A DNA stretch of 64,000 nucleotides from Myxococcota bacterium (GTDB taxonomy: Bacteria; Myxococcota; JAJVIH01). The notes below the pieces were generated by a model, which saw only the letters and a program-made list of their open reading frames with translations, did no database searches and was not told the DNA's origin. Where the stretch lies: NCBI GenBank assembly GCA_022072125.1, contig JAJVIH010000030.1, forward strand, positions 1-64,000, read 5' to 3'. Below are positions 33,473-52,074 of the stretch, in pieces (within the stretch, counting starts at the first letter, position 1; every line of letters begins with the position of its first letter). A program made the position numbers and the translations under genes.

Positions 33473-33919
33473 TCACATCCGCTGGGCGAGTTTGGCGTTG
33501 GTTTCGCGCAGGCGCTGGCTGAGCACGCGGGCGATGTTGATCACCACCATCGTGAAGCCGTTTTTATACACCTTGGCGAAAGAGTGCAGATTCTCGTTGG
33601 AGAGGTAGATCATCTCCGTGTCGGTGCGGGCCTTGACGCTCGCGGACCGGTATTCCTTATCAATCAGGGACATCTCGCCAAAGAAATCGAGGGCTTTCAG
33701 GGTGGCGATGATTTTGGGCGACGAGGTTTTGAAGTCACGGATGACATCCACCTCGCCGGAACCAATGACATAGAGGGCGTTGCCGACCTCGCCTTCCTCG
33801 AAAACGATATCGCCCGAGGCATAGGTCTTGACCTGACAGAGGTCCGCCAGCATATCCAGCTCGTCGGGGAGCAGGTTGGCGAACAGTCGCGAGGACTGAA
33901 GAACCTGATGTTTATCCAT
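33473..33919 (-). CDS. Cyclic-nucleotide-binding domain protein
   Basis: A 148-residue stand-alone CAP_ED (cNMP-binding) domain without a DNA-binding part. Features are LLPDELDMLADLCQVKTYASGDIVFEEGEVGNALYVIGSGEVDV (beta roll) and the phosphate-binding cassette region FFGEMSLIDKEYRSASVKA, where GEMSLI and R-S-A-S keep the Glu and Arg typical of nucleotide binders. The C-terminal helix (NIARVLSQRLRETNAKL) follows. The ATG at 33919 is taken; a GTG two codons upstream (33925) is also possible. It is the last gene of the 49.7-33.5 kb envelope cluster, 18 bp after the coiled-coil gene, and may report cAMP, cGMP or c-di-GMP to that machine. Confidence 0.85.
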   Translation of the reverse strand: MDKHQVLQSSRLFANLLPDELDMLADLCQVKTYASGDIVFEEGEVGNALYVIGSGEVDVIRDFKTSSPKIIATLKALDFFGEMSLIDKEYRSASVKARTDTEMIYLSNENLHSFAKVYKNGFTMVVINIARVLSQRLRETNAKLAQRM

Positions 33920-33937
33920 GGCCACGGGTCTCCGGCA

Positions 33938-34970: not shown

Positions 34971-36374
34971 TCAACCTCCGGGCGAGAAGCTGAACGGGTA
35001 GGTCACGGTGACGTTTTCACCCTTCTCGTTGCGTCCAAAGTAAATGGTTTTGATGACATCCACAATGCAGTCGCCGACATCCCGGTCGGGCAGGCTGCTT
35101 TCAGCGACGCGGGCGGTATTCACACGTCCGTCGGCGCCGACCACGAAAAAGACCACCACCTTGCCCTTGAGGGTGGGATTGGCGCGCAGCTTGCGTTCGT
35201 AGCAGGCCTTGAGCGCGCCCATCTTGCTGGTGACCTTGGAGGATATCTTGTTGTGATCCATGCCGCCGCCAATGGTTTTGGGGGCTTGCATGGAAACGCC
35301 GCCGACCACGCGCGGTCCGCCTGCGCCAGCCAGTTCCTTGCCGCCAGCGCCGCCGGTGCCGGCGACCTTGCTGCCGCCTGCCTGAACCACGCGCGCGCCA
35401 GTGGTCAATTCGCCATATTTTTCCACCGCCTTGACCCGTCCGCCCATGACGGTATCGGCATATTCGCCGGCCTTGACCTTGGATATGGCGCTCTCGAACG
35501 AACCGCCGGAGTTGTCTTCTGCGAGCAGGCGGGACGCCGCACTGTTGCTGTTGCAGCCGGCGCCCTTGCAGGTCAGTTTTTTCAGCACCATGATGACGGC
35601 GCTCTTCTCAACCGCCTTGATATTTTCCTGGCGCTCCTTCTCGCGGGCGCTGGCCGGAGGAGCGTCGCTTGCCTCCTCCTTGGGAGCTTCGGCGGGCTTT
35701 TCTTCCTTCGGCGCCTCGCTCGGCGTGTTGCTGGGCCTGTCATCGGCCTTTTTGGGCTGGGGCTTGATTTCCAGCTTGGGGGCCATGATCTTGACGAAAC
35801 GATCCGGGATATCTTCCAGTTCGCGGGTGGTGCGCACCGGCTGACTCATCAGGTAGCTGACGACGATGAAATGAATCACCGTGCTCATCGCCAGCAATCC
35901 GGCGTAGAGTTTGTCAATGCTCTTGAGGAAATAGCCCTTGGCGATGGCCGGAATCTGCGGCTTGGCGGGTTCCGGGGGCGGAGCGACAAACTGGAACAGG
36001 ATGGTGACGTTGCCGAACACCACCTTGCCGCGCGAGTCGTCGTTCATGGGCAGGACGTAGACGTTGCCTTCCTTCTTGACGAGTCCCTGCGACTTGAGGG
36101 CGTCGAAATCCAGGTTGTTGTTGTTGACGGTGACCCGGCCGCTCATCTGATCGGTGAACGACAGCACATACTGCTTGTTCTTGAGCCGGAACAGGGGGAA
36201 GGTCTGCGGCAATTCCGCCAGGGGAATCACCAGCGAATTGTTGGTGGACTGACCAATGGACACCGGATCGCGCTTGCGAATCAGGCGTTCCTCAATGATC
36301 TTGCCGCTGCTGATGACGCCGATGCGAAGGATCTTGAGCTGGTTGAGTTGTTGTTGCTGCTGTTGCTGGCTCAT
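34971..36374 (-). CDS. FHA-like/TM/AgmX-TonB C-terminal protein (GltG-like)
   Basis: A 467-residue trans-envelope protein. After a start with seven consecutive Gln, residues 13-131 form an FHA-like beta sandwich (VSIGQSTNNSLVIP, LFRLKNKQYVLSF, MSGRVTVNN). One membrane helix lies at about 155-176. The periplasmic part is Lys/Pro/Glu-rich (185-245), then Gly/Ala-rich. The C-terminal AgmX/PglI domain (about 370-467: GALKACYERKLRANPTLKGKVVVFFVVGADGRV, CIVDVIKTIYFG) is the TonB-like end. This order matches GltG of the Myxococcus gliding machine as I know it. GGGAGAGAAGAG precedes the ATG. It lies directly downstream of exbB-exbD-exbD, so it is probably the energy-transducing arm driven by that motor. 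Confidence 0.88.
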   Translation of the reverse strand: MSQQQQQQQLNQLKILRIGVISSGKIIEERLIRKRDPVSIGQSTNNSLVIPLAELPQTFPLFRLKNKQYVLSFTDQMSGRVTVNNNNLDFDALKSQGLVKKEGNVYVLPMNDDSRGKVVFGNVTILFQFVAPPPEPAKPQIPAIAKGYFLKSIDKLYAGLLAMSTVIHFIVVSYLMSQPVRTTRELEDIPDRFVKIMAPKLEIKPQPKKADDRPSNTPSEAPKEEKPAEAPKEEASDAPPASAREKERQENIKAVEKSAVIMVLKKLTCKGAGCNSNSAASRLLAEDNSGGSFESAISKVKAGEYADTVMGGRVKAVEKYGELTTGARVVQAGGSKVAGTGGAGGKELAGAGGPRVVGGVSMQAPKTIGGGMDHNKISSKVTSKMGALKACYERKLRANPTLKGKVVVFFVVGADGRVNTARVAESSLPDRDVGDCIVDVIKTIYFGRNEKGENVTVTYPFSFSPGG

Positions 36375-36444
36375 TCTCTTCTCTCCCGTGGTGACGGGCG
36401 TCCCGGTGCGTGAATGGTTTCGGCGTCCGCCATTCGCGCCCGGT

Positions 36445-37053
36445 CTATTTGTTCTTCACAACCGCAAGCTTGTACTGGCCAAATTCCGCCTGACCAGCGG
36501 TGTCCAGCACGCGGAGCAGCAGTTTTGCAGGCATGTCCGTGTTGGCGATCACGTTGATCATGCCCTCGAAATTCGAGCCGCCGCCGGCCGCGAAGCGCTG
36601 CTGCTTTTCGCGGGCCTTGGACAGGGCGTCCTTCAAAGTGGCGAGGGTGCCTTCGGCGTCTATGGCGTCCCGGCTGTATTCGTACTGGCTGAGCTGCACC
36701 ACCGAGATGTTGTTGACCAGAATATGGTTCGGCGTGATGGTCATCTGCACCGCCTGCTTCGGGTCAATCAGCGCGTTCGATTTGGGCATGTTGACTTCAC
36801 GGTTGAGCGTGATGGGGTCGTTCGCGTAGGTCAAAATCAGGTACACCAGGATGTTGGTGAAAATATCCATCAACGAGTTGATATTCAGGGCGGGGGATTC
36901 ATACTTCCCCGCCTTGGCGCGGCGCTCGGCGTTCTTGGCCTTGGCTTTCTGCAGCAAGACATCCAGTTCAGCCTTGTTGACCGGTCCGCGATAGACCTGG
37001 TTAACCGGATCGTCCGATGGTGCGCCTGCAACGTTGATGTTCGCTTCCGCCAT
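36445..37053 (-). CDS. ExbD/TolR-family motor subunit with conserved Asp
   Basis: A 202-residue ExbD/TolR protein starting at MAEANINVAGAP. An unusually long cytoplasmic N-terminus (about 55 residues, basic, KAKAKNAERRAKAG) precedes the single membrane helix SLMDIFTNILVYLILTY, in which D63 is the protonatable residue of the proton channel. The periplasmic domain includes ITPNHILVNNISVV and MINVIANTDMPAKLLLRVLDTA. It lies 13 bp downstream of the second ExbD gene and forms with it and ExbB a stator like AglR/Q/S or TolQR. It lacks any DNA or cell-wall binding motif. Confidence 0.92.
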   Translation of the reverse strand: MAEANINVAGAPSDDPVNQVYRGPVNKAELDVLLQKAKAKNAERRAKAGKYESPALNINSLMDIFTNILVYLILTYANDPITLNREVNMPKSNALIDPKQAVQMTITPNHILVNNISVVQLSQYEYSRDAIDAEGTLATLKDALSKAREKQQRFAAGGGSNFEGMINVIANTDMPAKLLLRVLDTAGQAEFGQYKLAVVKNK

Positions 37054-37066
37054 GATCCCGTCCTGC

Positions 37067-37609
37067 CTATTCGATCTGGACCGCCTGAAACCCGCCCGCA
37101 AGGGATATTCCATCGAACATCATCTTGGGGGGGACCTGGGTTTCGGTTCCCGGGATATACCGGGCCGCGTCCATGGTCTGAATGATCACTTCATAGGGAA
37201 CATTGTCATCGAGCGACAGCGTGGCCCCATGTTCTTCCTCGACGCCCGCCTGTTTATGCCAGATCTGGTAGATCTCGTGAAGGGCCTTGCGCAAGGTCGC
37301 CGTGTCGTAGTCGGCGCCCTTCTTCGGAATCTTCTTCGATTCGGACTGCTGGAAACCGGGGAGGTTGGCGATGATGTAATAACCCGTCGGACCCACGCCG
37401 ATGACCAGCCCAAGCTTGGGTTTGTTTTCCTTTTCGTCGGAGGGGCCGCCGCCGCCGCCATCCGCTTCCATGCTGGCGGAGACGTTGATGACCTTGTATT
37501 CGACGAATGACGCGCCCAGCAACAGGAACGGGATGATCATGCACACCAGATTCATCATCGGCGTGAGATTCAAATCCGGCAGCGGTTCTGGTTCGCGGAC
37601 TTTAGCCAT
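37067..37609 (-). CDS. ExbD-like subunit lacking the channel Asp
   Basis: A 180-residue ExbD-family protein. After the typical LPDLNLTPMM lead-in, the usual membrane Asp (LTPMVDV in most members) is Asn (N20, LTPMMNLVCMIIPFLLLG). The periplasmic domain (about 40-180) has the two-lobed ExbD pattern and ends with GGFQAVQIE. The gene lies between exbB (36 bp) and the Asp-containing exbD (13 bp). By comparison with other systems, this subunit could dimerise with the Asp-bearing one but not carry protons itself. The start MAKVREPEP is fixed by family length. Confidence 0.88.
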   Translation of the reverse strand: MAKVREPEPLPDLNLTPMMNLVCMIIPFLLLGASFVEYKVINVSASMEADGGGGGPSDEKENKPKLGLVIGVGPTGYYIIANLPGFQQSESKKIPKKGADYDTATLRKALHEIYQIWHKQAGVEEEHGATLSLDDNVPYEVIIQTMDAARYIPGTETQVPPKMMFDGISLAGGFQAVQIE

Positions 37610-37645
37610 GGCTTGGTTCCCGGGGTTTTCCTGCGTTGCCCGTCA

Positions 37646-38305
37646 TCACGAGGAAGCGCGATCCATGGGGTTGGTCTCGCCGCGGTTGCGGGAGAACAGC
37701 ATGTTCTGGAGTTTCAACGAGTATTCGTCAATCTCCGACATGATCTTGTTGGTGAGATTGGTCAGAATCAGGTGCGCGGCCAGGCAGGGGATGGCGACGA
37801 TCAGACCAAACGCCGTGGTGTTCATGGCGGTCGAGATACCGGCCGAGAGAACTTCCTGGCGTTTGTCCGGGGTCGCGGTGCCCAGCGCCTCGAACGCTTC
37901 GATCAGACCCGTGATGGTGCCGAGAAGTCCCAACAGGGTGGCGATATTGCCGACGGCGGCGAGGGAGTTGGTCCGCTTGGTGAGTTGCGGCAACACTTCC
38001 AGGGTCGCCTCTTCAATCGCCGCGACGATTTCGGAATCCCCCTTGTTGGAACGGGTCAGACCCGCCTTGACAATCTTGGGGAGCGCCGCCTTGGGGGCCG
38101 CGTTGCAGAGTTTGATCGCCCGGTCAATGTGGTTGGCGAGCACGAGCTTCTGAATCTGCGCCATGAACGCCGGGCCGTTGATGTTGTACCGGAGGGCGAT
38201 AGCGATAAACCGCTCCAGCAGCAAGGCCAGCGCAATCACCGAACAGATGGTGATCGGGTGCATCCAGACGCCGCCTTTGTTGTAGAAATCGATCATGCCC
38301 TGCAT
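37646..38305 (-). CDS. ExbB/TolQ/MotA-family proton channel subunit
   Basis: A 219-residue inner-membrane protein with three helices: about 14-32 (MHPITICSVIALALLLERF), 115-140 (SLAAVGNIATLLGLLGTITGLIEAF) and 160-185 (AFGLIVAIPCLAAHLIL). The conserved polar Thr residues and the LLGLLGTITGLI motif are those of the TolQ/ExbB channel. The start at 38305 has AAGGAG 8 nt upstream; the upstream open frame is not family-like. With the two ExbD subunits it would form the proton-driven motor that energises the TonB-like protein downstream. It is shorter than E. coli ExbB (244) by the N-terminal extension. Confidence 0.94.
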   Translation of the reverse strand: MQGMIDFYNKGGVWMHPITICSVIALALLLERFIAIALRYNINGPAFMAQIQKLVLANHIDRAIKLCNAAPKAALPKIVKAGLTRSNKGDSEIVAAIEEATLEVLPQLTKRTNSLAAVGNIATLLGLLGTITGLIEAFEALGTATPDKRQEVLSAGISTAMNTTAFGLIVAIPCLAAHLILTNLTNKIMSEIDEYSLKLQNMLFSRNRGETNPMDRASS

Positions 38306-38427
38306 CGCGCTTCTCCTTCTTCCCCATGTTGGACACCGGAAACCCGAGCAGGTTCCCGGCGGTACGGAATGTGATGGTGAAAACCCCTCGAAAACGTTCC
38401 GCAATCAGACGGAACGCCGCGTCAATT

Positions 38428-38685
38428 TCAAAACGGCTCCTTTTGGACCGATTCCTCGATCTTGTCAAGGAAGCTTTCCGGCCGCTCAATGTCTTCGTGA
38501 CGGTAGGTTGAGCGGGCCAGGTTGTAACCCACTTCGGCGCGCTGAACCTCGCCTTTGATCTCGGTATCCTGCAATTCAATGATGGTCGAGGCCCGCCCTT
38601 TCGCCTCACCCTTCTTTTGGGCCCAAGCGGGAGATGAAACCATCAGTCCAAGCAGGACAAAGGCAAACAGAATTTTTCTGCTCAT
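38428..38685 (-). CDS. Small secreted protein between TPR lipoprotein and exbB
   Basis: An 85-residue exported protein. A signal peptide (about 1-22, ILFAFVLLGLMVSSPAWA) is followed by a mature part beginning QKKGEAKGRASTIIELQDTEIKGEVQRAEVGYNLARSTY and ending in DIERPESFLDKIEESVQKEPF. I recall short proteins of this form (EIEGKVQKPEAFYIL...ESFIPKIIES) beside ExbB genes in Myxococcota, with unknown function. GAGG lies upstream of the ATG. It is probably a periplasmic accessory of the motor. Confidence 0.78.
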   Translation of the reverse strand: MSRKILFAFVLLGLMVSSPAWAQKKGEAKGRASTIIELQDTEIKGEVQRAEVGYNLARSTYRHEDIERPESFLDKIEESVQKEPF

Positions 38686-38734
38686 AAACACCTCGTTTCT
38701 AGCATACCTGCTGTCCGGAACGCCACACATTTTT

Positions 38735-40450
38735 TCACTCCACGGGGGGCGGCGGCGGAATATCCGAGCCCGGTTCCGGCGGCGGAGGCGGCGGCTCATC
38801 CGGCGCGGGAGGAGGAGCGGGAGGTGCTTCCACGGGAGGCGGCTCCGGGACCGCGGGTGGAGGCTCTGGCGCGGACGGCGGCGGTTCAGGTGTTGCGGGG
38901 GGCGGTTCGGGCGCGGCAGGCGGCGCCTCCGGAGCAGGGGGAGGAGGAGCATCCGCTGGCGGAGCTTCAGGCGCGGGGGGCGGAGGAGCATCCGCCGGGG
39001 GAGCGGGCGGCGCGTCTCCCGCAGGCGGCGCGGAGCCATCCGGAGCAGGCGCGGCGCCGCCTTCCGGCGGCTGGGCCTGCTCCATTTTTTTCAGTTCTTC
39101 CAGGGCCTTGCGTTCATTTTCAATGGATTTCTTGATGAATTCAATGCGTTTGTTGGCCTCGGCGATGTAATCATTGGAGCGCCGGACCAGGTCAGGATTG
39201 GCGTTGGTCTTGTCGTTGTACTGGCGGAAGAGTTCGATAGCCTTGTTGTAGGCGAGGATATTGGCCTCGTCGTTTTTGCGGCTGGCGTCGAACCACAAAA
39301 GCGCCTGGTTGAAGATGACTTCCACCAGTTGGGGGTTGAGCGTCAACGCCCGCTGGAACGCCTGTTCGGCGCCCTGGGTATCGCCCATGCCCGCCATTGC
39401 GGACCCCAGGTTCATCCACGCCCGCGCGAAATCCGGATAGTAGGTGGTGGCGGCGCGAAATGCGTTGGCGGCGTCCTGGTAGAGGCGGCCCTGCAAATAC
39501 AGAATCCCCAGGTTGTTCTGGGCTTCCACCATATCCGGACGCAGCCGGACGGCTTCCTTGAAGTTGAGCAGCGCGCGCTGGATTTCCTTGTTGCGAAGAT
39601 AATAGATCCCAAGCTGGAAAAACACCCGGGCGTCGGTTGGATCATCCACTGCCTGCTTTTCAAGGATGTCCAGCGCCAGGTCCTTTTTGCCCTGCTTGTA
39701 ATAGGCCTGCGACAGGGCGAGGCGCGCGCTGGATGATTTCTGATGCGTCACCAGAACCTTCCGCGCCTCGTTGATCGCCCTTTCCGGGTTGGATGAATTT
39801 TCGGCGAGCAGAATCGCGAAGGTCTCGCGCGCCATCACCACCTTGTCGTGCCGGGCCACATAGTCATCGAGCCAGGTGATGGCCTCGGTGACCTTGCCCT
39901 GCTTGCGCTTGAGCAAGGCGAAATTGCGGACAGCCGGTCCATACTCCGCATTGAGGGCGAGGGCCTTCTGGTAATTGACTTCCGCCGCCTGGTAGTTGCC
40001 GGAATACTCCATGGCCACGCCCAGGTTGTAGAAGCACTGGTAGCACTCGGCGTCGGCGGAGGCGGCCCGCTGGAACGCCTGCGCGGCGCCGGCGGGATCC
40101 GTCAGAATCAGTTCGTAGCCTTCTTTCAGGCTGGCGTCGGCGGAGGCGTTGGGCTGGCGTTCAGGCGGCTCACGCTCTTCTTCCGGAATCTCCTCGACCA
40201 CCGCCTCGGCTGGGGCGGCGGGAGCGGCGGCCTCCTTTTTTTCCCCGGGGGCGCCCTCTTCCCCGGCGGGAGGGGGCGCGGGCGGCTCGCCGGGAGCATC
40301 TTCACGAACTTCCTCCCGTGGCTCCGGTTTGGACTTTCGCACCGCCTTTTTTTCCAGATCGGCGCGGTCATCCTGCGCGGGCTGGGAGGCGCATCCCGCC
40401 GCCAGCGCCAAGGAGAGGATCAACAATCCATGGATAAAACGCATGTTCAT
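38735..40450 (-). CDS. TPR lipoprotein with Pro-rich tail (AglT/GltE-like)
   Basis: A 571-residue lipoprotein with lipobox AAGC (Cys about 20), then an acidic Pro/Ala/Glu-rich linker (about 35-90). About eight tetratricopeptide repeats follow (about 95-430; AAEVNYQKALALNAEYGPAVRNF and QGAEQAFQRALTLNPQLVEVIF are examples). The tail (about 465-571) is a Pro-rich array of PPAPEAPP and PPAPPEP units ending IPPPPPVE. It overlaps the upstream 1191-aa TPR gene by 4 bp (ATGA), so the two are translationally coupled. By position and type it resembles AglT/GltE, the TPR lipoprotein of myxobacterial gliding. A second start at 40444 is possible. The Pro tail could reach across the periplasm. Confidence 0.87.
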   Translation of the reverse strand: MNMRFIHGLLILSLALAAGCASQPAQDDRADLEKKAVRKSKPEPREEVREDAPGEPPAPPPAGEEGAPGEKKEAAAPAAPAEAVVEEIPEEEREPPERQPNASADASLKEGYELILTDPAGAAQAFQRAASADAECYQCFYNLGVAMEYSGNYQAAEVNYQKALALNAEYGPAVRNFALLKRKQGKVTEAITWLDDYVARHDKVVMARETFAILLAENSSNPERAINEARKVLVTHQKSSSARLALSQAYYKQGKKDLALDILEKQAVDDPTDARVFFQLGIYYLRNKEIQRALLNFKEAVRLRPDMVEAQNNLGILYLQGRLYQDAANAFRAATTYYPDFARAWMNLGSAMAGMGDTQGAEQAFQRALTLNPQLVEVIFNQALLWFDASRKNDEANILAYNKAIELFRQYNDKTNANPDLVRRSNDYIAEANKRIEFIKKSIENERKALEELKKMEQAQPPEGGAAPAPDGSAPPAGDAPPAPPADAPPPPAPEAPPADAPPPPAPEAPPAAPEPPPATPEPPPSAPEPPPAVPEPPPVEAPPAPPPAPDEPPPPPPEPGSDIPPPPPVE

Positions 40451-43400
40451 TTCTCGCCTCCTCCAACGCGATCGCCGGTGTCCGGGGCGGGAGGCGGCGG
40501 CGTGTCTTCGGGCGCGGGAGCGGACGCGGGAGGCGGCGCCGGGGGCGGAGATTCCGCGGTGACTCCGCCATTGGTGATGGCGTCTTCCTGGAAGGCGATG
40601 ACCGGGTCCTGCCGGGCCTGCGAGGAAGGATCAATCATGGCGAGGGCCTTCTCGATCTCCTGCAGCCAGGGGGAATCCACCGCCTGGGCGCGCTTCACGA
40701 CCTCGATGCCCGCCTTGTAGCGCTTGATCGCCTTGTCAAAGATGGGCGCGGAGTATTCTTCCAGCAGGTTCTTGAAATCCTCGGCGCAGGTGTCGCCGCG
40801 GCCCTTGCATTCGGGCGGCACGGGCGCGTCAATCAGCGTCTTGGCGAAGCGATCATACAGATAACCCGCCTTGTAGGCCGCCGCGGCGATCATATTGGGA
40901 TTGCCGAAGTTGGCGACCTTTTCGTATTCCTTCTCGGCCTTCTCCAACTGCTTGGACTTGTCGGTGAACTCCCGCTCGAAACGCTTGATCGAACTGAAGC
41001 GCATCTTGTCGAATTTCTCGAATTCATCCTCCGCCACTTCAAACTGGCAGGTGGCGGCGGCCTCGGAAGCCTTGATGAAGTCAAAGCGGTTGGCCGAGTT
41101 GACTTCGATGTTGGCGATTCCCTTGGTCTTGTATTCCTTCAAGGTCTGGTTGCACCAGCGTTCGTATTCCTTGCGGTTGCCCTTCTTCTTGTAGAGTTCC
41201 GCGATGCGGTAGGTGGACTGCAAGCTCTTGAGCTTCTGCTTGCCGCCCCATGACTTGATGAACGATTCATGGGCGCGGATGGCCCGGTCGGTCTGGCCGG
41301 CCTTTTCGTACAGCAGCGCCGCTTCAAAGGTGACTTCGGGGGCGGCGGGCTTGTCTTTGTAGGTGTCGGCGTATTTCAGATACAGGCTGGCGCCGCGCTC
41401 GTAGTCGCCCTGAAGCGCATAAATCTGGCCCGACTGCAACAGCGCCTTGTCGCGCTCCTTGAAGTCCGGATACTTGTTGTACAACAAGTCGAAATTCCGG
41501 ACCGCGTCGTCGTACTGGTAGAATTGATAGGAATTGCGCGCGACCTTGAACAGCGCTTCCGGCGCGCCCTTGGATTTCGGGTAATCCTTGAACGATTTCT
41601 CGAAGGCGGCGAGCGCATCCTTGCGGCGCTTCAGTTTTTCGTAGATCAGGCCGGCGTTGAAGAGCGCGTCCGGGGCGTTCTCGTTGGTGGGGTACTGACC
41701 CACCAGCTTTTCATATTCGCGCGCCGAAGAGAGCAGCTTGCCTTCCTTTTCCAGTTTGATGGCTTTTTGGAAGATCGCCGCCTGCACCAGGTTGCGCGGG
41801 CCGCTGGTCTCCACGCCCATTTTTTCCTTCTTGGCCGCCCAGGCGCCGACGTTGTCCCAGTCCTCGGTGGCGATGAAGGTGTTGATCAACAGGTCGTAGG
41901 CCATGCCCAACTTGGTGGACTTGGGGTAATTGTCGATCAGGTAGATGAAACGCTCGCGGGCCTCGGGCAGATGATCGTACTGGTAGTAATACTGGGCCGC
42001 CTCGAAGACCATGAAGTCGGCCATTTCTCCCTTGGGGGCCACGCGCAGGTAGCCGTTGGCGGCGTCAATATAACGCTGAAGGGCGGCTGGAACGGTCTTG
42101 GGCTCGAATTTCTGGCCCTTGCGTTCTTCCGGGGTCCAGAGCTGATCCAGTTTGGGCACGCGGCCAGCCTCCTGGGCCTGCAACACCAGGCGGGAGTAGG
42201 CGCGCACCGCCTCGAAGGCGGCTTCTTTCCGGTATTTGCGGCCGGAAACGCTGTCGCGGACGGTTTCGTACTGCTTGCCCGCGCGTTCGTAGTCTTCCAC
42301 CGCGAACAGGGACACGCCCAGGAAAAACGCCAGTTCATATGAATTGGAGGAGTGGGGGAAGCGATCCAGGAACTCCACGTAGGCCGACGACGCCATGCGG
42401 TACAGCGGCGTGGACAACTGCGCGAAACCCGACTGTTTCATCACGTCGCCCTGCTCATGGAAGCTCTTGGAGAAGTCCACCAAGGTTTTTTCCAGGGCGT
42501 CCAGACCGCGCTGCACCGCGACCGGGTTGTTTTCGTTGCGTTTGCGCCAGTCCGCTCCGTAAATCTTGGACATGTTCATCAACTCGGCGAAGGCGATTTT
42601 GTAGCCAGCCAGCTTTTCATCCACCATGCGGGCGGCTTCTTTTTTCTCCACCGTGGGGGCGGGCAGGTAACGGGCGACCGCCTGCTGGAACAGCAGCTTG
42701 ACCAACGAATAATACAGTTCCGGAGCGGTGGCGGAATCCGGCTGGGTCTGAATGGCCAGCTTGTAGGCGGTCACGCCGCGGGCTACATCCTCGGCGTCGC
42801 CGCGTTCGGAATACTGATCTCCGATGGAGCGCAACACCTCGCCGGTATAAGGTGGATTGCCCAGCTTCATGAAATAGGCGTGGGCGTTTTCAGGACCGGC
42901 GCCTTCCCAACGCGGGTCGGTGTAGCAGATGCCGATGGACTTGACCGCTTCCGGCCGGAAATCGGTGCCCTTGCCCTCTTCCTTCTTCTTGCGCTCGTCC
43001 ATTTCCAGCAGTTCGGTGAACTGCTGGACGGCTTCGGCGTATTTGCCGCGGCGGAAGGTGGTCCAGGCGATACGGTACATGGCCTTGTCCACGTTGGCGT
43101 AGTCCTTCGATTCCAGGACCTTGCGATAGCAGGCCTCGGCCTTGTTCAGGGTGGCCTCGGTCTGGGAGATATCCACCTGGGCGTTGTAGTATTTGTCGCC
43201 CAGGCGCATCCAGGCGTCGGGGGCGTAGCGGCTTTTCGGGAAACGGCTGGTCAACGCGCCAAGAACCTTCTCCGCTTCGTTCATGTTGGCTTCGCCGCCC
43301 TGTTCGGCGAGGGCGAAACCCAGCATGTAGTAGGCCGCGTCAATGTCCTTGAAGTCGGGGAAGTTGGTCACCAGTTTGCGGTAGACGGTGATGATCGGCC

Positions 43401-44022
43401 CCATGTCATGGGGGGGCGGTTCCAGTCCTTCCTTGCCGGCCTCTTTCAGTTCGGCCAGGTATTTGTCGAATTTTTTGGAGTAGTCTTCCGCCTCGCGCTC
43501 GAAATAGAGTTCGGCGAGCCGGATCATCGAAGCGGGCGTGTACGTCCGGTTGAGCGGGTACTTCTCGATGAATTCCTCGAAGCGGGTGATCGCCTCGTCG
43601 CGGCGCAGGCGCTGCTCCACCTGCAGTTCGTTCACCCGGGAATCATAGGCGCGGGTGATGTTTTTCCGCTGGGTCTCGTACTGCATCTTGACGTAGGTCA
43701 GCAGGTTCCGGCGGTACTCGACGGATTCGTTCTGCAGGTGATCGGCGACCCGGCCCATGTCTTCCAGTTCGGCCAGTTCATCCTTGGAATATTTCTCCAC
43801 GGGACGGCTCAAACGGTCACGGTTGCCTGAATCCGGCTTGGCCTTGCTTGCGGAAGGAGGAGGAGCCTCTTCCAAGCGGGGCGGAGCCTCGGATTCCGTG
43901 GGCGGCGGCGGAGGCGGGTCGTCGTTCTGCGCCATCGCGGCGGAGGCGGCGAAAACGCCGAACGCCAGAACAGATGCAATGATGCGTCGCATATCCGTAC
44001 CTGAACGATTCATCCGGTTCAT
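40447..44022 (-). CDS. Giant periplasmic TPR protein (1191 aa)
   Basis: A 1191-residue exported protein. The signal peptide (MRRIIASVLAFGVFAASAAMAQ) begins about ten residues in from the first ATG. An acidic Pro-rich stretch is followed by a solenoid of many tetratricopeptide-like repeats (about 100-1130), for example FEEFIEKYPLNRTYTPASMIRLAELYFER and FEKSFKDYPKSKGAPEALFKVARNSYQFYQYDDAV. The C-terminus is again Pro/Ala-rich. It resembles PglI/GltI and similar TPR proteins of the Myxococcus gliding machinery in type, not in proven orthology. ATGA overlaps join it to the genes on both sides. It would form a scaffold in the periplasm. Confidence 0.85.
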   Translation of the reverse strand: MNRMNRSGTDMRRIIASVLAFGVFAASAAMAQNDDPPPPPPTESEAPPRLEEAPPPSASKAKPDSGNRDRLSRPVEKYSKDELAELEDMGRVADHLQNESVEYRRNLLTYVKMQYETQRKNITRAYDSRVNELQVEQRLRRDEAITRFEEFIEKYPLNRTYTPASMIRLAELYFEREAEDYSKKFDKYLAELKEAGKEGLEPPPHDMGPIITVYRKLVTNFPDFKDIDAAYYMLGFALAEQGGEANMNEAEKVLGALTSRFPKSRYAPDAWMRLGDKYYNAQVDISQTEATLNKAEACYRKVLESKDYANVDKAMYRIAWTTFRRGKYAEAVQQFTELLEMDERKKKEEGKGTDFRPEAVKSIGICYTDPRWEGAGPENAHAYFMKLGNPPYTGEVLRSIGDQYSERGDAEDVARGVTAYKLAIQTQPDSATAPELYYSLVKLLFQQAVARYLPAPTVEKKEAARMVDEKLAGYKIAFAELMNMSKIYGADWRKRNENNPVAVQRGLDALEKTLVDFSKSFHEQGDVMKQSGFAQLSTPLYRMASSAYVEFLDRFPHSSNSYELAFFLGVSLFAVEDYERAGKQYETVRDSVSGRKYRKEAAFEAVRAYSRLVLQAQEAGRVPKLDQLWTPEERKGQKFEPKTVPAALQRYIDAANGYLRVAPKGEMADFMVFEAAQYYYQYDHLPEARERFIYLIDNYPKSTKLGMAYDLLINTFIATEDWDNVGAWAAKKEKMGVETSGPRNLVQAAIFQKAIKLEKEGKLLSSAREYEKLVGQYPTNENAPDALFNAGLIYEKLKRRKDALAAFEKSFKDYPKSKGAPEALFKVARNSYQFYQYDDAVRNFDLLYNKYPDFKERDKALLQSGQIYALQGDYERGASLYLKYADTYKDKPAAPEVTFEAALLYEKAGQTDRAIRAHESFIKSWGGKQKLKSLQSTYRIAELYKKKGNRKEYERWCNQTLKEYKTKGIANIEVNSANRFDFIKASEAAATCQFEVAEDEFEKFDKMRFSSIKRFEREFTDKSKQLEKAEKEYEKVANFGNPNMIAAAAYKAGYLYDRFAKTLIDAPVPPECKGRGDTCAEDFKNLLEEYSAPIFDKAIKRYKAGIEVVKRAQAVDSPWLQEIEKALAMIDPSSQARQDPVIAFQEDAITNGGVTAESPPPAPPPASAPAPEDTPPPPAPDTGDRVGGGEK

Positions 44023-46385
44023 CGTCCGCCCTCGCCTTCCTCCGAGACGATCTCGCGGAAGTCTTCGGAGATATTGCGAAGCTCGCGCTGCTTCTGCTTC
44101 TGCAACTCATTGACATCGGAGGTGATCAGTTCGTGCTTGCGCCCGGCCACATCCGCGATGCCATACTCCGATTGAAGCATGATATTTTCATATTTCTCCT
44201 TGACCTTCTGCAAGGAGCGGTAGGCGATGTCTCCAGCGATCTTTTCGGTCTGCGCCTGCTGGGCCTCGTAAGCCTTGTCGTAGTCATTCAGTTCGCCCTT
44301 GTAGCGCAACAAATCCGCCTTCAGCGGCACGCCCTTGCGCCGGATGACTTCATCGAGAGTCACGCTGTTCTGGCGGGCGCGGACATGCAGTTCCCTGGCG
44401 CGGGAGCGGGCGGCCTCGATGCGCCGCAAAACGGCGAGATCGCTGGAATCGGCGCGGTTGCGCGCGGGCGTCATGAGGGCGCGCTCCGCGCGCAGGGCGG
44501 CGATGTAGTTCTCGCGGATGTTTTCATCATCCGACTCCGCCGAACCCAGACCCAATGACCGTTTCTCCGAGACAATGCGGCCTTCCATCTCCTTGGCGCG
44601 TCCCAGCATCCATTCGATATATTTTTTTTCATCGTCCAGGCGCTTCTTGAAACCAATTTCCGCCTGGCGGTTGACTGAATTGGGGTTGCTGGATTCGCGC
44701 ATGTACCGGTTGTACATCTCCTCGATGGCCAAGATCTCGACGCGGAGTTCCCTCAAACCATTCTGCACGGCGTACAGGCCGGTCTGAATGCCCAGGATGC
44801 GCTCTTCCACCTTGCCCTGGCGATCGTAGAATCCCGTCTGCTCATTGGGAATCGTGGAAAATTTGCCGGTCACGGCGGCGCGGCGCTTGCGGGCGGCCAG
44901 CACTTCGTCGCGCTCGCTGTCGCTCATGTGTTTTTCCAGCAGCGAGAACTCGGCGTCGGTGAGTTGGCCTTCGTACAGGGCGAGGTTGTTGTCAATTTCC
45001 ATCAGGATGCTCTTGCCCTCGCGCTCGCGGGGGAAGAGTTCGACGGCGTTTTTGCCTTCCACGGTCCGGAGAAGATGATCCACTGTGTCGAGGGATTTGG
45101 CGATTTCCTTCCGGCTATCGTCAATCTCATTGAACACCCGCATGGCGAAACGCATGCTGGGGTTTTCATTGGCGGCGTTGATGGCGGGCTGGGGCAGACC
45201 GCGATCCACCTTCAATTCGTTGGTGCGCCCCACGACCTTGTTGAAGTAGCTTTCCGGATCGCTATGTTGCGCCGTCAGTTCAACGATTTCGTCACGCAGC
45301 GGACCGTACTCGCGACGCACCTGGCCGTAGATCACCGTGGCGTCTTCAAACTGGTTCTGCCGCACCAGCAGCTTGGCGCGCACCAACTGGATGGACGGAT
45401 CGTCCTGGGAACTGAATCCGCTGGTGATGACGTAGAGTTCCATCACGCGCTGGGCCTTGTCGAAGTTGTTGTTCCGGACATAGGCCCATGCCAGTTCGTA
45501 GAGACCGGCCAGGCGGTGCTTGGAATCCTTCGCCAGGGATGAATAGGCCGCCTGCGCTTCCGGATATTTGCCCTGTTCATAGAGCACGCGGCCCTTGCCG
45601 AGGATGGCGAGGTCGCGGATATCCCGTTCGGTGGCGTTTTTAGCCTCGTGCTTGCTGATGGTTTCAAATTCCTCCAGCGCCTTGTCGAGCTGTTTCAACT
45701 GCACATTGGCCAAACCAAGGAAATAACGGCTCTGGAGATAACGGGAAGTCCCATTGCTGACCGAACCCATGGCGCGCATGCAACCAAGATAATCGCGCTG
45801 GTTGTATTGGGCGCGCCCCATCAGATACCAGACGCCGGATCGGCCTTCCTCGCCATCCACGGTGGGGATTTGCTGGGCGAGGGCTGGAAGTTCTTCATAA
45901 CGCCGGGTGATGTCGGCGATCTCAATCAGCCTCCCCAGCGACTCGGCGCGGTATTTGCCGCCGCCATTGCGCAACAGTTCATTGAAATAAGCCTTGGCGC
46001 CCCGGTAGTTGCGGTACTGGTAAAGAGCCTCGGAAAGCACATAGAGAGCGTCCACCCGCTCGCCGCCGGAAAGCTTCCCGCCTTCGTACAGATCGTGCGA
46101 ATAAATCGCCGCCTGGATAAACGCCTTCTGCTTGAGCGCCCGTTTGGCGTCCTCCAGCATGGCGGATGCGCTTTCCTGCTCGGCGACATTCTGCAGGTTG
46201 ATGTACTGCTCGCGCACAAAGGTCAGGCGGCTGTCCATATCCGACAGACCTTTTTCCACGTTCTCCACGTTGGTTTCCGGGTCAACCGCGAACGCCAGAC
46301 CTGGCCATACCGCCAGCGCCGCGGCGGGCAACAGGCCCGCGCTCAGGAGACCACGGAGGCGAAACTTCTGGGGCCACAACCGCAT
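44019..46385 (-). CDS. Periplasmic TPR/coiled-coil protein (788 aa)
   Basis: A 788-residue exported protein. A signal peptide (about 1-33, LLSAGLLPAAALAVWPGLAFA) leads into TPR-like helices (about 40-400; YPEAQAAYSSLAKDSKHRLAGLYELAWAYVRNN), then a long coiled-coil region (about 420-788; for example REREGKSILMEIDNNLALYEGQLTDAEF) ending RNISEDFREIVSEEGEGGR. It has no membrane helix after the signal. Its stop overlaps the start of the 1191-aa gene and its start follows the five-repeat gene by 4 bp, so it belongs to the same polycistron. It is not recognised beyond TPR. Confidence 0.82.
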   Translation of the reverse strand: MRLWPQKFRLRGLLSAGLLPAAALAVWPGLAFAVDPETNVENVEKGLSDMDSRLTFVREQYINLQNVAEQESASAMLEDAKRALKQKAFIQAAIYSHDLYEGGKLSGGERVDALYVLSEALYQYRNYRGAKAYFNELLRNGGGKYRAESLGRLIEIADITRRYEELPALAQQIPTVDGEEGRSGVWYLMGRAQYNQRDYLGCMRAMGSVSNGTSRYLQSRYFLGLANVQLKQLDKALEEFETISKHEAKNATERDIRDLAILGKGRVLYEQGKYPEAQAAYSSLAKDSKHRLAGLYELAWAYVRNNNFDKAQRVMELYVITSGFSSQDDPSIQLVRAKLLVRQNQFEDATVIYGQVRREYGPLRDEIVELTAQHSDPESYFNKVVGRTNELKVDRGLPQPAINAANENPSMRFAMRVFNEIDDSRKEIAKSLDTVDHLLRTVEGKNAVELFPREREGKSILMEIDNNLALYEGQLTDAEFSLLEKHMSDSERDEVLAARKRRAAVTGKFSTIPNEQTGFYDRQGKVEERILGIQTGLYAVQNGLRELRVEILAIEEMYNRYMRESSNPNSVNRQAEIGFKKRLDDEKKYIEWMLGRAKEMEGRIVSEKRSLGLGSAESDDENIRENYIAALRAERALMTPARNRADSSDLAVLRRIEAARSRARELHVRARQNSVTLDEVIRRKGVPLKADLLRYKGELNDYDKAYEAQQAQTEKIAGDIAYRSLQKVKEKYENIMLQSEYGIADVAGRKHELITSDVNELQKQKQRELRNISEDFREIVSEEGEGGR

Positions 46386-46389
46386 CGCC

Positions 46390-48978
46390 TTATTCTCCCG
46401 TCTCGAACTGAAGACCCGGGCGGTCTTCGATTCGCGTGAAGATACCGCCTTCTTCCACGCCTTTGACCGTCAGCTTCAGGTCCTGTCCGGGGATGAAGTT
46501 GAATTCATGGGTCTTTTCAGCGCGGAAGCGCATGTCTTCCATGTAGGTGAAGAAGCCCTTCGCATTCCCGGCATACACCGCCGTCACCTTGAGAACGTTC
46601 GGTCCCGGACTGACTGGAATGGCGCCGACATCAAATTCGCGGACGCCGGCGGCGGAGGGGTCTTTCGACGCATCGCGGCTGAACACCACCTTGCCATTGA
46701 GCCGGTAGATCAGCGTCAACAGTTTGTAGCCGTCGCCCATCTCATTCTTGTGGATCACATGAACCTGGCCGCCCGCGGCCTGGCTGGCCGCTCCCGGCGC
46801 GAAATACGAAGCCGGGCGATCCAGGGTGATGCGAAGCTGCGGACGGTCTTCCTGCCGGATCAGCGCGCCAGACTCCTCGTAACCAATGATGTTGAAGGTC
46901 AGGGTCTGGCCCTTGCCAATCACCCAATCATGCTGCCGGGCGGCGCGGAAATTCATGTCGTCCATGTAGGTGAAGAAGCCGCGTCCATTGCCGGAGTAGA
47001 CAACATCCACATCGAAGGTATGGCGTCCCTCGCTGGTGTCCACGAACCCGAGATCGATTTTGTCCGTCGAGGCGATCGAGGCGTCCTTGTCGCGGCTGCG
47101 GCGCAACACGGGCTTGCCATCCAGCCGGACCACGATGGATTTGAACAGGAAAGAATCGGTCATCTGGTTCAGGAAAATCACGCGGGCGCGGGTGTCGCTC
47201 GCCGCAGCCGGCGCGGCGGGACGGGAGCCGGATTGGGGTTCCACTGGCGCAGCGGCTGGTTTGGGAGCGCCCGCGGCGGGCAGCGGAACGGGTGCGGCGG
47301 CGGCCACACCTCCGCCCAGCGAGGTCATGGCGATGCGGACCGCCGGCTTGTCTTCCGGTTTGGTGAAGATTCCGCCTTCTTCAAGACCAGTCACCCGGAT
47401 TTCAATGGTTTCGCCTTCCTTAATCGAGAAATTCTCCGATTTGTTGGCCCGGTAGCGGAAATCCTCCATGTAATCAAAGATGCCGCGCGCGGAGCCCGAG
47501 TACACAAGGTTCACCGTCAGCTTGTGATTGCCCGGCTTGACAGGGAAGGTCCCGGCGTCAAACAGCTTGCTGGTGCGCAGGGAGGCGTCCTTTTCGCCAT
47601 CGCGATTGTAAATGACCTGTCCATCCACCACATAACGCACCTGACGGAGCAGGAAACCACTCCCCATCTGGTTGTCGTGAATGATCTTGATGCGGGTTCC
47701 CGTGTCGGGAATCGCGGGCGCCTGTCCCGGAACCTTGGGCCCCCCTGGCGTGGCGGCGGCGACCGCGCGGCCTTCCACCACGTTGGCGATCACACGAACG
47801 GCGGGAAGATCCTCCTGTTTGGTGAACACCCCGCCGTCTTCGTAGCCAATGACCGTGAGTTCGACGGTCTCGCCCTCATTGATGGTCAGCGGATGGCTGT
47901 GATCGGCGCGGAAGCGCATGTCTTCCATGTAATTGAAGATGCCGCGCGCCGCGCCCGCATAAACAATATTCACTCCGAACTGGTACACCCCGGGTTTGAT
48001 ATCGAAGGTTCCGGCTTCAAAACGCTGGGCCTTGGCCAACTCCGCATCCCGGGCGCCGTCACGCCGGAATATCTGCTGCCCATTGAGGGTGTAACGGATA
48101 TCCCGGAGCAGGAACGATTTGCCCATTTCGTTCTGGTGAATGATGCGCAAGCGGGTTCCGGTGGGCGCCGCCAGGGCGGAAGGGGTGGCGGAAATATCCT
48201 TCGGCGCAGGCGCCTTGATTTCCGGAATGGGCAGGGCGGCGACCGCGGTCGGCGGCGCCTTGACCTTGGGCCGGGCGACCAGAACCCCGGCGCCTTTGCC
48301 GAGCGAATTGGGCGCGCGGCCGACAAAGGTGGGATCGTTGGCGACAAAGCGGGTATCCAGTTCCACTTCCAGGGCGGGACGGTCGAGGGTCTGAACGCCC
48401 AAGCCTTCGCGTTCATAACCACGCAATAGAATGGGGGTGGCGCCGCGCATGCGCACATAGAAGGTACGGGTTTCCGCGAGTTTGACCCGGTAGCCCTCCA
48501 TATAAGAGAAGGTGCCGCTGTTGCCGCGATAGATGATGAATACATCCATGCGGTGGTTGCCGGGGGAAACCCGGCGATCAAACAACAAGGTGGTGCTGCC
48601 CGCCGGCGTTTTTTCGATTTCCTGCCCCTTTGCCGGGTAGACCTGCATGCCATCCAGATAGATGGTGATGGAATCCACCAGGAAATCACGCCCCACATCA
48701 TTTTTGAACGAGATGCGCGCGCGCGGCAGGTTGTATTCGTAGTTCAGGTCCTCCAGGGTGGAAATATGCTTTCCGCCCTGCCCAGCGCGCGCGCGAAGAT
48801 CGCGCACCTGATTTTCGAGATCTTCCGGGTCGAGGGTGTAGGAGTCATCTTCGGTCAGGGGACTCAGTTCAGAGGGTTTTCCCCCACCCTGGCCTTCCTG
48901 TGCGAGCGCCCCGGCCGCCGCCCCCAGCAAGAGAGCAAGCAGGATCGCAATGGTATGTTTGGGTTTCAAAAGGCCCAT
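46390..48978 (-). CDS. Secreted protein with five copies of an unrecognised envelope domain
   Basis: An 862-residue exported protein (signal 1-26, ending GALAQ). After an acidic helix (45-80) come five copies of a ~123-residue domain: 87-210, 276-398, 429-552, 597-720 and 738-860, joined by Pro/Ala-rich linkers of about 20-65 residues. Shared landmarks are an N-terminal strand pair (HxNxMGxxFLLxxIxYxLxG), a PGxHxxxVxxVYxG core, the near-invariant GxFxYMEDMRFRA, and a closing GYExGGxFTxxEDxPxxR. Copy 1 is the most divergent. The 249-aa protein encoded just upstream holds one copy. I know no named family for it; a beta-sandwich fold is inferred. AGGA precedes the ATG. Confidence 0.85.
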   Translation of the reverse strand: MGLLKPKHTIAILLALLLGAAAGALAQEGQGGGKPSELSPLTEDDSYTLDPEDLENQVRDLRARAGQGGKHISTLEDLNYEYNLPRARISFKNDVGRDFLVDSITIYLDGMQVYPAKGQEIEKTPAGSTTLLFDRRVSPGNHRMDVFIIYRGNSGTFSYMEGYRVKLAETRTFYVRMRGATPILLRGYEREGLGVQTLDRPALEVELDTRFVANDPTFVGRAPNSLGKGAGVLVARPKVKAPPTAVAALPIPEIKAPAPKDISATPSALAAPTGTRLRIIHQNEMGKSFLLRDIRYTLNGQQIFRRDGARDAELAKAQRFEAGTFDIKPGVYQFGVNIVYAGAARGIFNYMEDMRFRADHSHPLTINEGETVELTVIGYEDGGVFTKQEDLPAVRVIANVVEGRAVAAATPGGPKVPGQAPAIPDTGTRIKIIHDNQMGSGFLLRQVRYVVDGQVIYNRDGEKDASLRTSKLFDAGTFPVKPGNHKLTVNLVYSGSARGIFDYMEDFRYRANKSENFSIKEGETIEIRVTGLEEGGIFTKPEDKPAVRIAMTSLGGGVAAAAPVPLPAAGAPKPAAAPVEPQSGSRPAAPAAASDTRARVIFLNQMTDSFLFKSIVVRLDGKPVLRRSRDKDASIASTDKIDLGFVDTSEGRHTFDVDVVYSGNGRGFFTYMDDMNFRAARQHDWVIGKGQTLTFNIIGYEESGALIRQEDRPQLRITLDRPASYFAPGAASQAAGGQVHVIHKNEMGDGYKLLTLIYRLNGKVVFSRDASKDPSAAGVREFDVGAIPVSPGPNVLKVTAVYAGNAKGFFTYMEDMRFRAEKTHEFNFIPGQDLKLTVKGVEEGGIFTRIEDRPGLQFETGE

Positions 48979-48999
48979 GATCCTTTCCGAAGCGGAAAA

Positions 49000-49749
49000 T
49001 TATTTCTTGTCGCCTTCGGGGGCCTTGGACGAAACCTCCTTGGTACGCGACACCGCCTTGCGATTCACCTCAAAGCGAATCGTGGGACGCTCGGTCAATG
49101 GTGTCGTGATTCCCCCTTTTTCATACGCGACAGCTTTCACAACAGTCTGCTGACCTTCCTGTGCGCTGAAGACATATTTGCCGGGCACCGTAAAACGGTA
49201 GCCATCCATGTAGCTGAACAATCCGCGGCCATTGCCCTGGTAAATCGCCACCACTTCGAGGGTGTGATTGCCGGGGGCGACGCGCTCATTCAGCACTTCC
49301 AGTTCGTTCTTTTCCGGCAGGGAAGGGTCATCCTCAATGGTTTTGGTCAGGATAGGCGTGCCATCCATCGTCACCTTGAGCTGCTGCAGAATAAAGGAGC
49401 CGCCCATTTCATTGTTGACCATAATCTGGACCTTGGGCCCGGTGATTGACCCCACAATGACGGTGGAGGCGAGTTGCGACAGGCGCGCCTTCGAGCGGAA
49501 AACCTTCTCCTTGAGATCGTTGACCTTTTCTTCCAGGTCCTTGAGCCGGACATTATACCCTTCTTCCACCGTCAGCAGTTCCTTGGCGGAAGCCTGGCGG
49601 GCGGCGGGGCGCGGAGCCGTGGCGGCGGGAGCGGCCTGGGGCGCCGGGGAAGCGGATTCACCAGAAGCAGGCGCAGCGCCTTCCTGTGCGTAAGCGGTGG
49701 CGGATGTGACAACCACGGCCAGCGCAACACTCAATCGCGTCAGATGCAT
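49000..49749 (-). CDS. Secreted coiled-coil protein with one copy of the envelope domain
   Basis: A 249-residue exported protein, first gene of the cluster. A signal peptide (about 1-21, ending TAYAQ) precedes an Ala/Pro-rich linker and a short coiled coil (56-95, VRLKDLEEKVNDLKEKVFRSKARL). One copy of the domain found five times in the next gene follows (106-228): VNNEMGGSFILQQLKVTMDG, PGNHTLEVVAIYQGNGRGLFSYMDGYRF, AYEKGG. The C-terminal tail is basic. It starts with GAGG 8 nt upstream, about 85 nt after a candidate promoter. The coiled coil suggests that it forms oligomers. Confidence 0.83.
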   Translation of the reverse strand: MHLTRLSVALAVVVTSATAYAQEGAAPASGESASPAPQAAPAATAPRPAARQASAKELLTVEEGYNVRLKDLEEKVNDLKEKVFRSKARLSQLASTVIVGSITGPKVQIMVNNEMGGSFILQQLKVTMDGTPILTKTIEDDPSLPEKNELEVLNERVAPGNHTLEVVAIYQGNGRGLFSYMDGYRFTVPGKYVFSAQEGQQTVVKAVAYEKGGITTPLTERPTIRFEVNRKAVSRTKEVSSKAPEGDKK

Positions 49750-50107: not shown

Positions 50108-50127
50108 AAGCATCATTATATATGCTT
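50108..50127 (-). terminator. Weak AT-rich terminator candidate
   Basis: At the very end of the gene at 50116-52074, the minus-strand sequence forms AAGCAT/ATGCTT around an 8-nt loop that includes the stop codon, followed by TATTATGCTT. The six-pair AT-rich stem is weak, and other pairings of the repeated ATGCTT are possible. Confidence 0.3.
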
Positions 50128-52074
50128 CATCTTATCCATCCATGCGGTCCGGCGTAACCCCCACAGGACCAGAACGAAGGCCCCAAGACAGCACAAATGC
50201 TTCCATTCCGTGGAATGGGATGGCCTGGAAAAACCACAGCCGCAGCTTCCGCCCGGACCCGTATGCTCATCAACGGTTACTTTTCTGGGCGTGGGCGCCG
50301 GGGGTTCACACCCCGTTACCGGACCGCAATCACCGGGATTGGCGTCCATCCAATCATCGCCATCCGGATCGCCGCCTGCGTCAGGGGGTTGTTGTCCGGA
50401 TCCGGAGCCATGCTGAATGATGAGCGGACCCCGGCTCTGCCCGGCCCTCGGCTCATTCACGCCATCATCAATTTCGCCGATGACCCAGTACTCTCCCGGG
50501 TCCAGGCCGCTGATATCCCACGAATACTCGTCCGACGGGCTGTCTTCGGGAATGTCCCTGGCGATGAGCGTCCAGTCCTTTTCTGGCGCGAAGGGGACTG
50601 GCGAATAATAGAGCGCGATGCTGGCGGAACTGTCGTCATCGGAGTCGCTCCAGACAATGCGAAAGGCCGCCCCGCTGACGGGGGGGTCGTTGCGTCCGGG
50701 AGAGAGAATCACGATCCCCGGCGCTTGATTGGGCGGCGGCCGCGGCGCCACCACCACCCTTCCCTGCCCATACGACCTAACCGGGGGATGAACCCCATCA
50801 TTGGCGATGACGAATGGCGTATATTCCCCCGGGGCCATCCCGCGGACATTCCAATACATACATCCCTCGCGGGGGGCTTTTTCTTGTGTGAAGATGATCG
50901 GACCGTCAAAGCCCGTCTGATCGCTGTCCACGCCGATGGAGACGCCCGGTTGATCTTCCGGATCGGCGACGCTCCAGCAGATTTCCACCCCATCCCGGGT
51001 TTCCACGCGATCCACCGGCCTGGTGACGCCGGCGGTGGGGGGCTGATTGGCGGCGATATTTTCCACAAAAACCGATCCCGCGGATCGGGTGCGATAGGGC
51101 AGCGTCTCTCCATCCTCGATGGAGGCGGCGATCACCCAGGTTCCAGACGATGCGCTGGTGGTGTCCCAGATATAAGAGCCTTTTTCACCGGCCTCGGGCA
51201 ATCCCAGAGCGATAGGGCGAAGATCGTTGATTCCATCCGGCGACCAATACAGGTTGATGCGGGCATCGCTGTCTGGATCCGCGTCGCGCCAGCGGATGGC
51301 GTACATACCGGGTGAAAACTCCTGCTGGCGATCCGGCTTGGTCAGGAAAATGAATGGCCGGACCTTGCGTCCGGGAGGAGCCACGGTGACCGGCGCGTCG
51401 GAGTATAGGTAGAGCGGCGCCGCAAGCCCGTCATTCACCTCCAGATAAATCCAGTAGGTCCCGGGGGTGGCGGCGGTGACATCCCAATCCACGGTGACCA
51501 GGCCATCCTCCTCGTGTCCCCCGGCGATCATGGTTCCATTCAGACCGCCGCGATCGTTGTCGTAGTACAGACGCCAGATGGCGCGGTGGTCCGGATCGGC
51601 GGCGCGGAAGATCACCTTGAAGGTCTGGGCGGCGATGGCCCCCCACTGGCTGGGTTCGACGATACTGCCATTGGGCGGGCGGTTGTCGCGGGGATGCCAG
51701 ATGGTGATTGGAACGCGGTGGGTGATGCGCACGGGCGGATTGACCCCGTCATCCAGCACGCCATTGATATACCAGGTTCCGGAGTCAGCCAGATCGGTAT
51801 TCCATGTATAGGACCCTGGCCCCGTCTGCACGGGAATATCCTGTGCGATGGGCCAGTTGGATTGATGAAATGGCGTATCGCTGTAATTCAGGCTCAGCAG
51901 GGCCTGCCCAGCGGGAATCGCCGCATCCCAAGTGATGACGAAGGATTGATCGGCGCGCCGCCCCGGCTCCGCTGGTTCGGTGAACTGCAGGCGCGGCGGC
52001 GCGGGATTCTGCCCGCACACGGAAACGGGCGCCGCCAGAACCAGCATCAGGAGGGTGAAGAAACGGGTTGTCAT
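50116..52074 (-). CDS. Secreted repeat protein with MYXO-CTERM-like tail
   Basis: A 652-residue exported protein. A signal peptide (about 1-22) precedes five Ig-like repeats of roughly 95-105 residues. Each repeat has an acidic opening such as ADPDSDA or SDSDDDSSA, a strand like LYYSP, and an ending YxWD...SGTWxIxxxxDDG. After a Gly/Asp-rich linker (GSGSGQQPPDAGGDPDGDD) comes the C-terminal part GGSCGCGFSRP...CCLGAFVLVLWGLRRTAWMDKMKHI. A Cys-Gly motif, one membrane helix and arginines make it resemble MYXO-CTERM sorting tags, though it has an atypical 10-residue extension. The D-rich loops may bind calcium. It would be surface-anchored or processed. Confidence 0.75.
   Translation of the reverse strand: MTTRFFTLLMLVLAAPVSVCGQNPAPPRLQFTEPAEPGRRADQSFVITWDAAIPAGQALLSLNYSDTPFHQSNWPIAQDIPVQTGPGSYTWNTDLADSGTWYINGVLDDGVNPPVRITHRVPITIWHPRDNRPPNGSIVEPSQWGAIAAQTFKVIFRAADPDHRAIWRLYYDNDRGGLNGTMIAGGHEEDGLVTVDWDVTAATPGTYWIYLEVNDGLAAPLYLYSDAPVTVAPPGRKVRPFIFLTKPDRQQEFSPGMYAIRWRDADPDSDARINLYWSPDGINDLRPIALGLPEAGEKGSYIWDTTSASSGTWVIAASIEDGETLPYRTRSAGSVFVENIAANQPPTAGVTRPVDRVETRDGVEICWSVADPEDQPGVSIGVDSDQTGFDGPIIFTQEKAPREGCMYWNVRGMAPGEYTPFVIANDGVHPPVRSYGQGRVVVAPRPPPNQAPGIVILSPGRNDPPVSGAAFRIVWSDSDDDSSASIALYYSPVPFAPEKDWTLIARDIPEDSPSDEYSWDISGLDPGEYWVIGEIDDGVNEPRAGQSRGPLIIQHGSGSGQQPPDAGGDPDGDDWMDANPGDCGPVTGCEPPAPTPRKVTVDEHTGPGGSCGCGFSRPSHSTEWKHLCCLGAFVLVLWGLRRTAWMDKMKHI

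Follow-up and report, generated by a model that had tools for sequence, protein, structure and literature searches.

The 862- and 249-amino-acid proteins encoded next to each other in the window (the whole 64,000-nucleotide stretch of Myxococcota DNA analysed here) are built around a repeated domain, for which we use the working name DOM and which lies outside every library searched (Pfam, NCBIfam and PDB sequences). Among the components of an Agl-Glt-type motor operon, the single-copy, 249-aa protein is widespread and probably ancestral, and the array of five in the 862-aa protein represents a local expansion seen in the window genome only. DOM is better accounted for as a conserved but unstudied piece of a machine whose general kind is known; its five-copy variant is known from this genome alone.

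Both open reading frames lie on the minus strand, at 46390–48978 (862 aa) and 49000–49749 (249 aa). A profile HMM of 126 positions, trained on the copies together with related sequences, delineates six DOM copies in the window, all encoded on the same strand. Five of these reside in the 862-aa exported protein, with E-values from 7e-32 to 7e-42, namely, copy 1, the most divergent (residues 84–209, positions 48352–48729, E = 7.5e-32), copy 2 (274–400, 47779–48159, E = 1.5e-40), copy 3 (427–553, 47320–47700, E = 7.2e-42), copy 4 (595–721, 46816–47196, E = 2.1e-36) and copy 5 (736–862, 46393–46773, E = 5.8e-37). The sixth occupies residues 104–230 of the 249-aa protein (49060–49440, E = 8.8e-47). 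The initial annotation had proposed six copies of about 123 residues, and the HMM limits agree with its boundaries to within 3 residues. All 15 pairs of copies align 18–82 standard deviations above shuffled sequence, with identities of 27%–57%. The divergent alignment of 55 rows was too variable for a pattern search, and a 13-row set of orthologues was taken instead. All six copies keep GxFxYM[ED][DG], along with a conserved Pro near the end of the domain that opens the last strand; the longer motifs quoted initially hold less generally, since copies 2 and 5 alone have the exact GxFxYMEDMRFRA and copy 2 alone the exact GYExGGxFTxxEDxP.

The novelty of the domain, also claimed at the outset, withstood all searches. 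Neither Pfam nor NCBIfam yielded an above-cutoff match to DOM, none of the 42 DOM orthologues scanned against Pfam gave one, and the PDB search revealed no convincing sequence relative, so that the profile falls within no known, characterized family. Weak Pfam matches to the chagasin inhibitor, CE2_N, ATG16 and PARP families were below the cutoffs (CE2_N far below) and were rejected. AlphaFold2, run on the 55-row alignment, predicts the single domain to be an 8-stranded beta-sandwich (pLDDT 91.6, pTM 0.82). Foldseek comparison of this model with the PDB produced zero matches at E ≤ 0.001; three viral models were retrieved at E ≤ 0.001 with TM-scores of about 0.45, the best being a DUF4352 protein. 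Transthyretin-like, fimbrillin-type and DUF4352-like sandwiches resemble DOM in general topology, with the best Foldseek TM-scores of about 0.4–0.5 and 8%–16% identity, and the full 249-aa chain had a single match, 4gpv, a Bacteroides putative adhesion protein (E = 4e-4, TM 0.25). Kinship to butyrophilin or transthyretin was considered and rejected, given that the resemblance reflects the general sandwich fold; as judged from the predicted model, none of these fold resemblances, including the viral ones, is evidence of kinship.

The 249-aa exported protein consists of a signal peptide, a Pro/Ala-rich stretch, a helix and the beta-sandwich. In its predicted structure, about 60 disordered residues are followed by a 39-residue helix (residues 60–98, positions 49456–49572, minus strand; LEERVNELKEKIFRSKARL) and then by the sandwich; the helix and the sandwich are both predicted confidently, and the helix, which had been anticipated for the single-copy partner, is kept in orthologues. 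Export of DOM to the envelope, another early proposal, is supported by the signal peptide and by an operon of periplasmic and lipoprotein parts.

The gene for the 862-aa protein sits between the 249-aa gene and gltC. Phylogenetic analysis places copies 2–5 in one clade (support 96/83), with copy 1 too divergent to place, and these sequence relationships point to local duplication as the origin of the array. No other protein with more than two DOM copies was detected in 195 Myxococcota genomes, as judged from per-genome match counts and fetched loci, and a search of genome contigs with the 862-aa protein as query returned no relative; a plasmid search with DOM likewise gave no match. The Pro-rich spacing described initially is borne out by linkers of about 64, 26, 41 and 14 aa, which are Pro/Ala-rich and of low complexity. 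Because such long linkers separate the copies, the sequence suggests a flexible, string-like 862-aa chain and not a ring or a rigid fibre.

The two DOM genes open a run of 12 same-strand genes encoding a complete Agl-Glt-type machine, and since neighbouring genes either overlap, by up to 4 bp, or are at most about 130 bp apart, the 12 genes probably constitute one operon. The DOM genes are followed, all on the minus strand, by those for a 788-aa GltC-type periplasmic TPR protein (44019–46385; NCBIfam GltC, 5.9e-20), a 1191-aa GltD-type TPR protein (40447–44022; recognized by family scans and relatives), a 571-aa GltE-type TPR lipoprotein (38735–40450; NCBIfam GltE, 1.1e-29) and a small, 85-aa exported GltF-like protein in the gltF position (38428–38685), which is found in the same position in relatives. 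The motor genes encode an AglR/TolQ-type proton-channel protein (37646–38302, with 38302 as the likely start) and two AglQ/S proteins of the ExbD/TolR type, the first at 37067–37609 (PF02472, 3.3e-9) and the second at 36445–37113 (likely start near 37053), for which no NCBIfam match was obtained and which was assigned by position and homology. A 467-aa GltG-type inner-membrane transducer with a TonB/AgmX-type C-terminus follows (34971–36374; NCBIfam GltG, 4.9e-40; myxo_SS_tail, 5.7e-26, above cutoff), and the operon ends with a 338-aa coiled-coil protein (33938–34954) and a 150-aa CRP-like cyclic-nucleotide-binding protein (33473–33925). The coiled-coil protein belongs to no Pfam family; another locus (L019) encodes a counterpart at the corresponding position (30% identity), and the protein may be a further unnamed part of the machine. 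Upstream of the operon, positions 50116–52074 encode what is probably a surface protein, 652 aa long. It combines a Kre9/KNH Ig-like domain (E = 1.9e-12) with a signal peptide and, at the C-terminus, a hydrophobic stretch bearing a Gly/Cys motif.

The 12-gene operon has the composition that Luciano et al. 2011 (PMC3169522) described for the Agl-Glt core complex, with homologues of the Group B genes for GltC, GltD, GltE, GltG, AglR, AglQ and AglS all located at 34971–46385, and the window GltD has the same length, 1191 aa, as that listed for M. xanthus (PMC3169522). In Geobacter and in non-Deltaproteobacteria, an ‘additional gene’ forms part of the core complex (PMC3169522). Because GltC, GltE and GltG all score under the NCBIfam equivalog cutoffs (71.5 versus 450, 103.7 versus 225 and 137.7 versus 650 bits, respectively), the window machine appears, by sequence, to be a paralogue rather than an orthologue of the gliding machine. 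Like the Agl-Glt gliding machinery (clusters G1, G2 and M1), the window encodes GltC, GltD, GltE, GltG, AglRQS and a protein in the gltF position together; unlike that machinery, it has DOM genes before gltC, and the gene inventory and family scans recognized no GltA/GltB-like barrel gene in the operon. In M. xanthus cluster G2, gltB and gltA precede gltC (PMC3169522), and the periplasmic GltC binds GltB and GltA (PMC4488436). Because the DOM genes hold the place of gltB and gltA, and no barrel gene was recognized, DOM is a candidate for the partner of GltC in the window version. The Nfs spore-coat machinery has a paralogous core of GltC, D, E and G type and is also driven by AglRQS (PMC3858216). 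Two more Glt/Nfs-type clusters with GltC-, D-, E- and G-type genes, both without DOM, are present in the window genome, on contig 5 (L083 6724–16734, with the GltD-type gene in two adjacent ORFs of 547 and 580 aa) and on contig 12 (L084 5745–15196).

DOM was detected in 153 of the 195 Myxococcota genomes, and the window genome has a seventh copy, a 222-aa exported single-domain protein on contig 30 (L003 1426–2094) close to two genes that look LpxA/LpxI-like by eye; neither this copy, nor the minus strand, nor the operon context figured in the inventory of the initial annotation. Single-copy DOM proteins encoded beside gltC are mostly 230–370 aa long by ORF calls, and their best alignments with the 249-aa protein are mostly 37%–50% identical, with 44%–50% identity to DOM proteins directly before gltC in many relatives. 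DOM usually sits between mglB-mglA and gltC in Myxococcota: among 95 distinct DOM sequences in loci fetched by similarity to DOM, a procedure that samples close orthologues most, 83 are followed by the gene for GltC (median gap −3 bp), and 64 are directly preceded by that for MglA (median gap 76 bp). By sequence, the 249-aa protein is an orthologue of this Myxococcota gene between mglA and gltC. In the window genome, mglBA is not beside the operon, mglA being on contig 2, and the single-DOM gene before gltC that characterizes G4-type loci is present, with the 862-aa gene intervening.

Among 58 genomes, G4-type GltC (threshold E < 1e-15) is encoded by 43 of the 46 with DOM and by none of the 12 without (Fisher p = 5e-10, uncorrected for kinship), the latter being spread over six families. 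The GltC of genome G052 itself contains an inserted DOM, and distant DOM-like domains, paralogues outside the operon, are fused to OmpA-family domains (L208 997–1941 and L214 1306–2643, both confirmed by Pfam, and L212 1288–2652, from the Myxococcus genome G049). It is mainly because of this co-occurrence, the G052 insertion and the OmpA-family fusions that we place DOM with GltC in the periplasm. Further DOM genes occur in other settings. In family f3, a second DOM protein adjoins a MutS-domain protein of about 630–650 aa with a hydrophobic N-terminal stretch (L052 4476–5438, L056 2020–2778 and L072 109–816), and a 453-aa protein with two DOM copies (L022 8733–10094) is encoded directly before an LpxD gene, away from any glt cluster.

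The counterpart of the window operon in M. xanthus would be cluster G4. Myxococcus loci share the order mglB-mglA-DOM-gltC-gltD-gltE-gltF-gltG; given this order and the positions of mglA and mglB (MXAN_1925 and MXAN_1926, respectively; PMC3983030) and of the G4 gltD homologue (MXAN_1922; PMC3169522), the DOM gene should correspond to MXAN_1924, which is unmentioned in the literature searched. The Myxococcus genome G049, used as a stand-in, contains four gltD homologues, whose map positions correspond to MXAN_1327, 1922, 3374 and 4870. Searches run without filters detected no DOM in the clusters presumed to be glt, nfs and G5 of M. xanthus. Of the G049 AglR copies, the one at 3.54 Mb, the map position of M2 (MXAN_3003–3005), shares 44% identity with the window AglR, and the one at 8.16 Mb, which fits M1, shares 40%; the AglR tree separates the window protein from M1 and groups it with other G4-type operons and the M2 copy (support 87/84). 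These relationships lend moderate support to the possibility that G4 and M2 of M. xanthus may be one machine, split in Myxococcus and intact in the window genome. Compared with G4 and M2, the window has the motor inside the operon, mglBA on another contig and the five-copy 862-aa protein added. G4 and M2 were reported to have no motility phenotype, and the function of G4, G5 and M2 was reported as unknown in 2011 (PMC3169522); M2 does not contribute significantly to sporulation (PMC3858216).

Considering together the observed operon, homology, conservation, co-occurrence, fusions and predicted fold, we infer for DOM a periplasmic position, contact with GltC and a part in force transmission, as well as a purpose for the five copies. 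We regard it as reasonably probable that the DOM protein is a component of a third, G4-type Agl-Glt machine, in which it serves as a periplasmic adaptor docking on GltC, with the 862-aa protein acting as a longer or multivalent form of this adaptor. The proton-driven AglRQS motor would pull, through the inner-membrane transducer GltG, on the periplasmic TPR scaffold of GltC, GltD and GltE. The helix and DOM sandwich of the 249-aa protein would dock on GltC, taking the role held by the GltA/GltB barrels in the gliding version, and would connect the scaffold with either the outer membrane or peptidoglycan. With five sandwiches on flexible linkers, the 862-aa protein would make several GltC contacts or reach further.

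Sugar binding is common among small beta-sandwiches, and DOM, above all in the five-copy array, might instead hold a periplasmic or surface polysaccharide moved by the motor, with avidity arising from the five copies. There is a precedent in the Agl-Nfs machinery, which moves the spore-coat polymer by transporting Exo glycan strands (PMC3858216), but DOM has no above-cutoff match to a carbohydrate-binding family, the CE2_N match falling far below cutoff, and we consider this explanation rather improbable. Somewhat less probable still is a role for DOM as a stator or brake that fixes the machine to peptidoglycan, in the manner of OmpA-family proteins, with the five copies as several anchor points; the fusions of distant DOM domains to OmpA-family domains, one of them in a Myxococcus genome, are compatible with such a function, but in these fusions the OmpA domain, not DOM, would bind, and the proteins of the operon contain no OmpA domain. 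Least credible is the free-standing periplasmic fibre or ring put forward in the initial annotation, in which the 862-aa protein would polymerize with the 249-aa protein: the tandem array, the shared operon and the predicted helix of the partner would suit it, but the single copy belongs to an Agl-Glt-type operon, in nearly all relatives the 249-aa protein occurs with no array, low-complexity linkers lie between the copies, and neither the sequence nor the fold searches turned up a relative that forms rings or fibres, apart from the one weak fimbrillin-type match (TM 0.25).

The adaptor model can be extended, tentatively and with considerable doubt, to a third machine comprising G4 and M2, tied by gene order to MglBA, in which GltC docks on a DOM adaptor instead of GltA/GltB and one lineage has elaborated this adaptor into a five-domain periplasmic tether, and which performs a task other than gliding or sporulation. 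A conserved, unstudied part of an envelope motor cluster is now identified, as MXAN_1924 by gene order, and G4 and M2, both orphan loci of M. xanthus, are suggested to form one machine, encoded beside the gene for the MglA polarity switch. For such a machine, the five-copy array would amount to a natural experiment in adaptor length.
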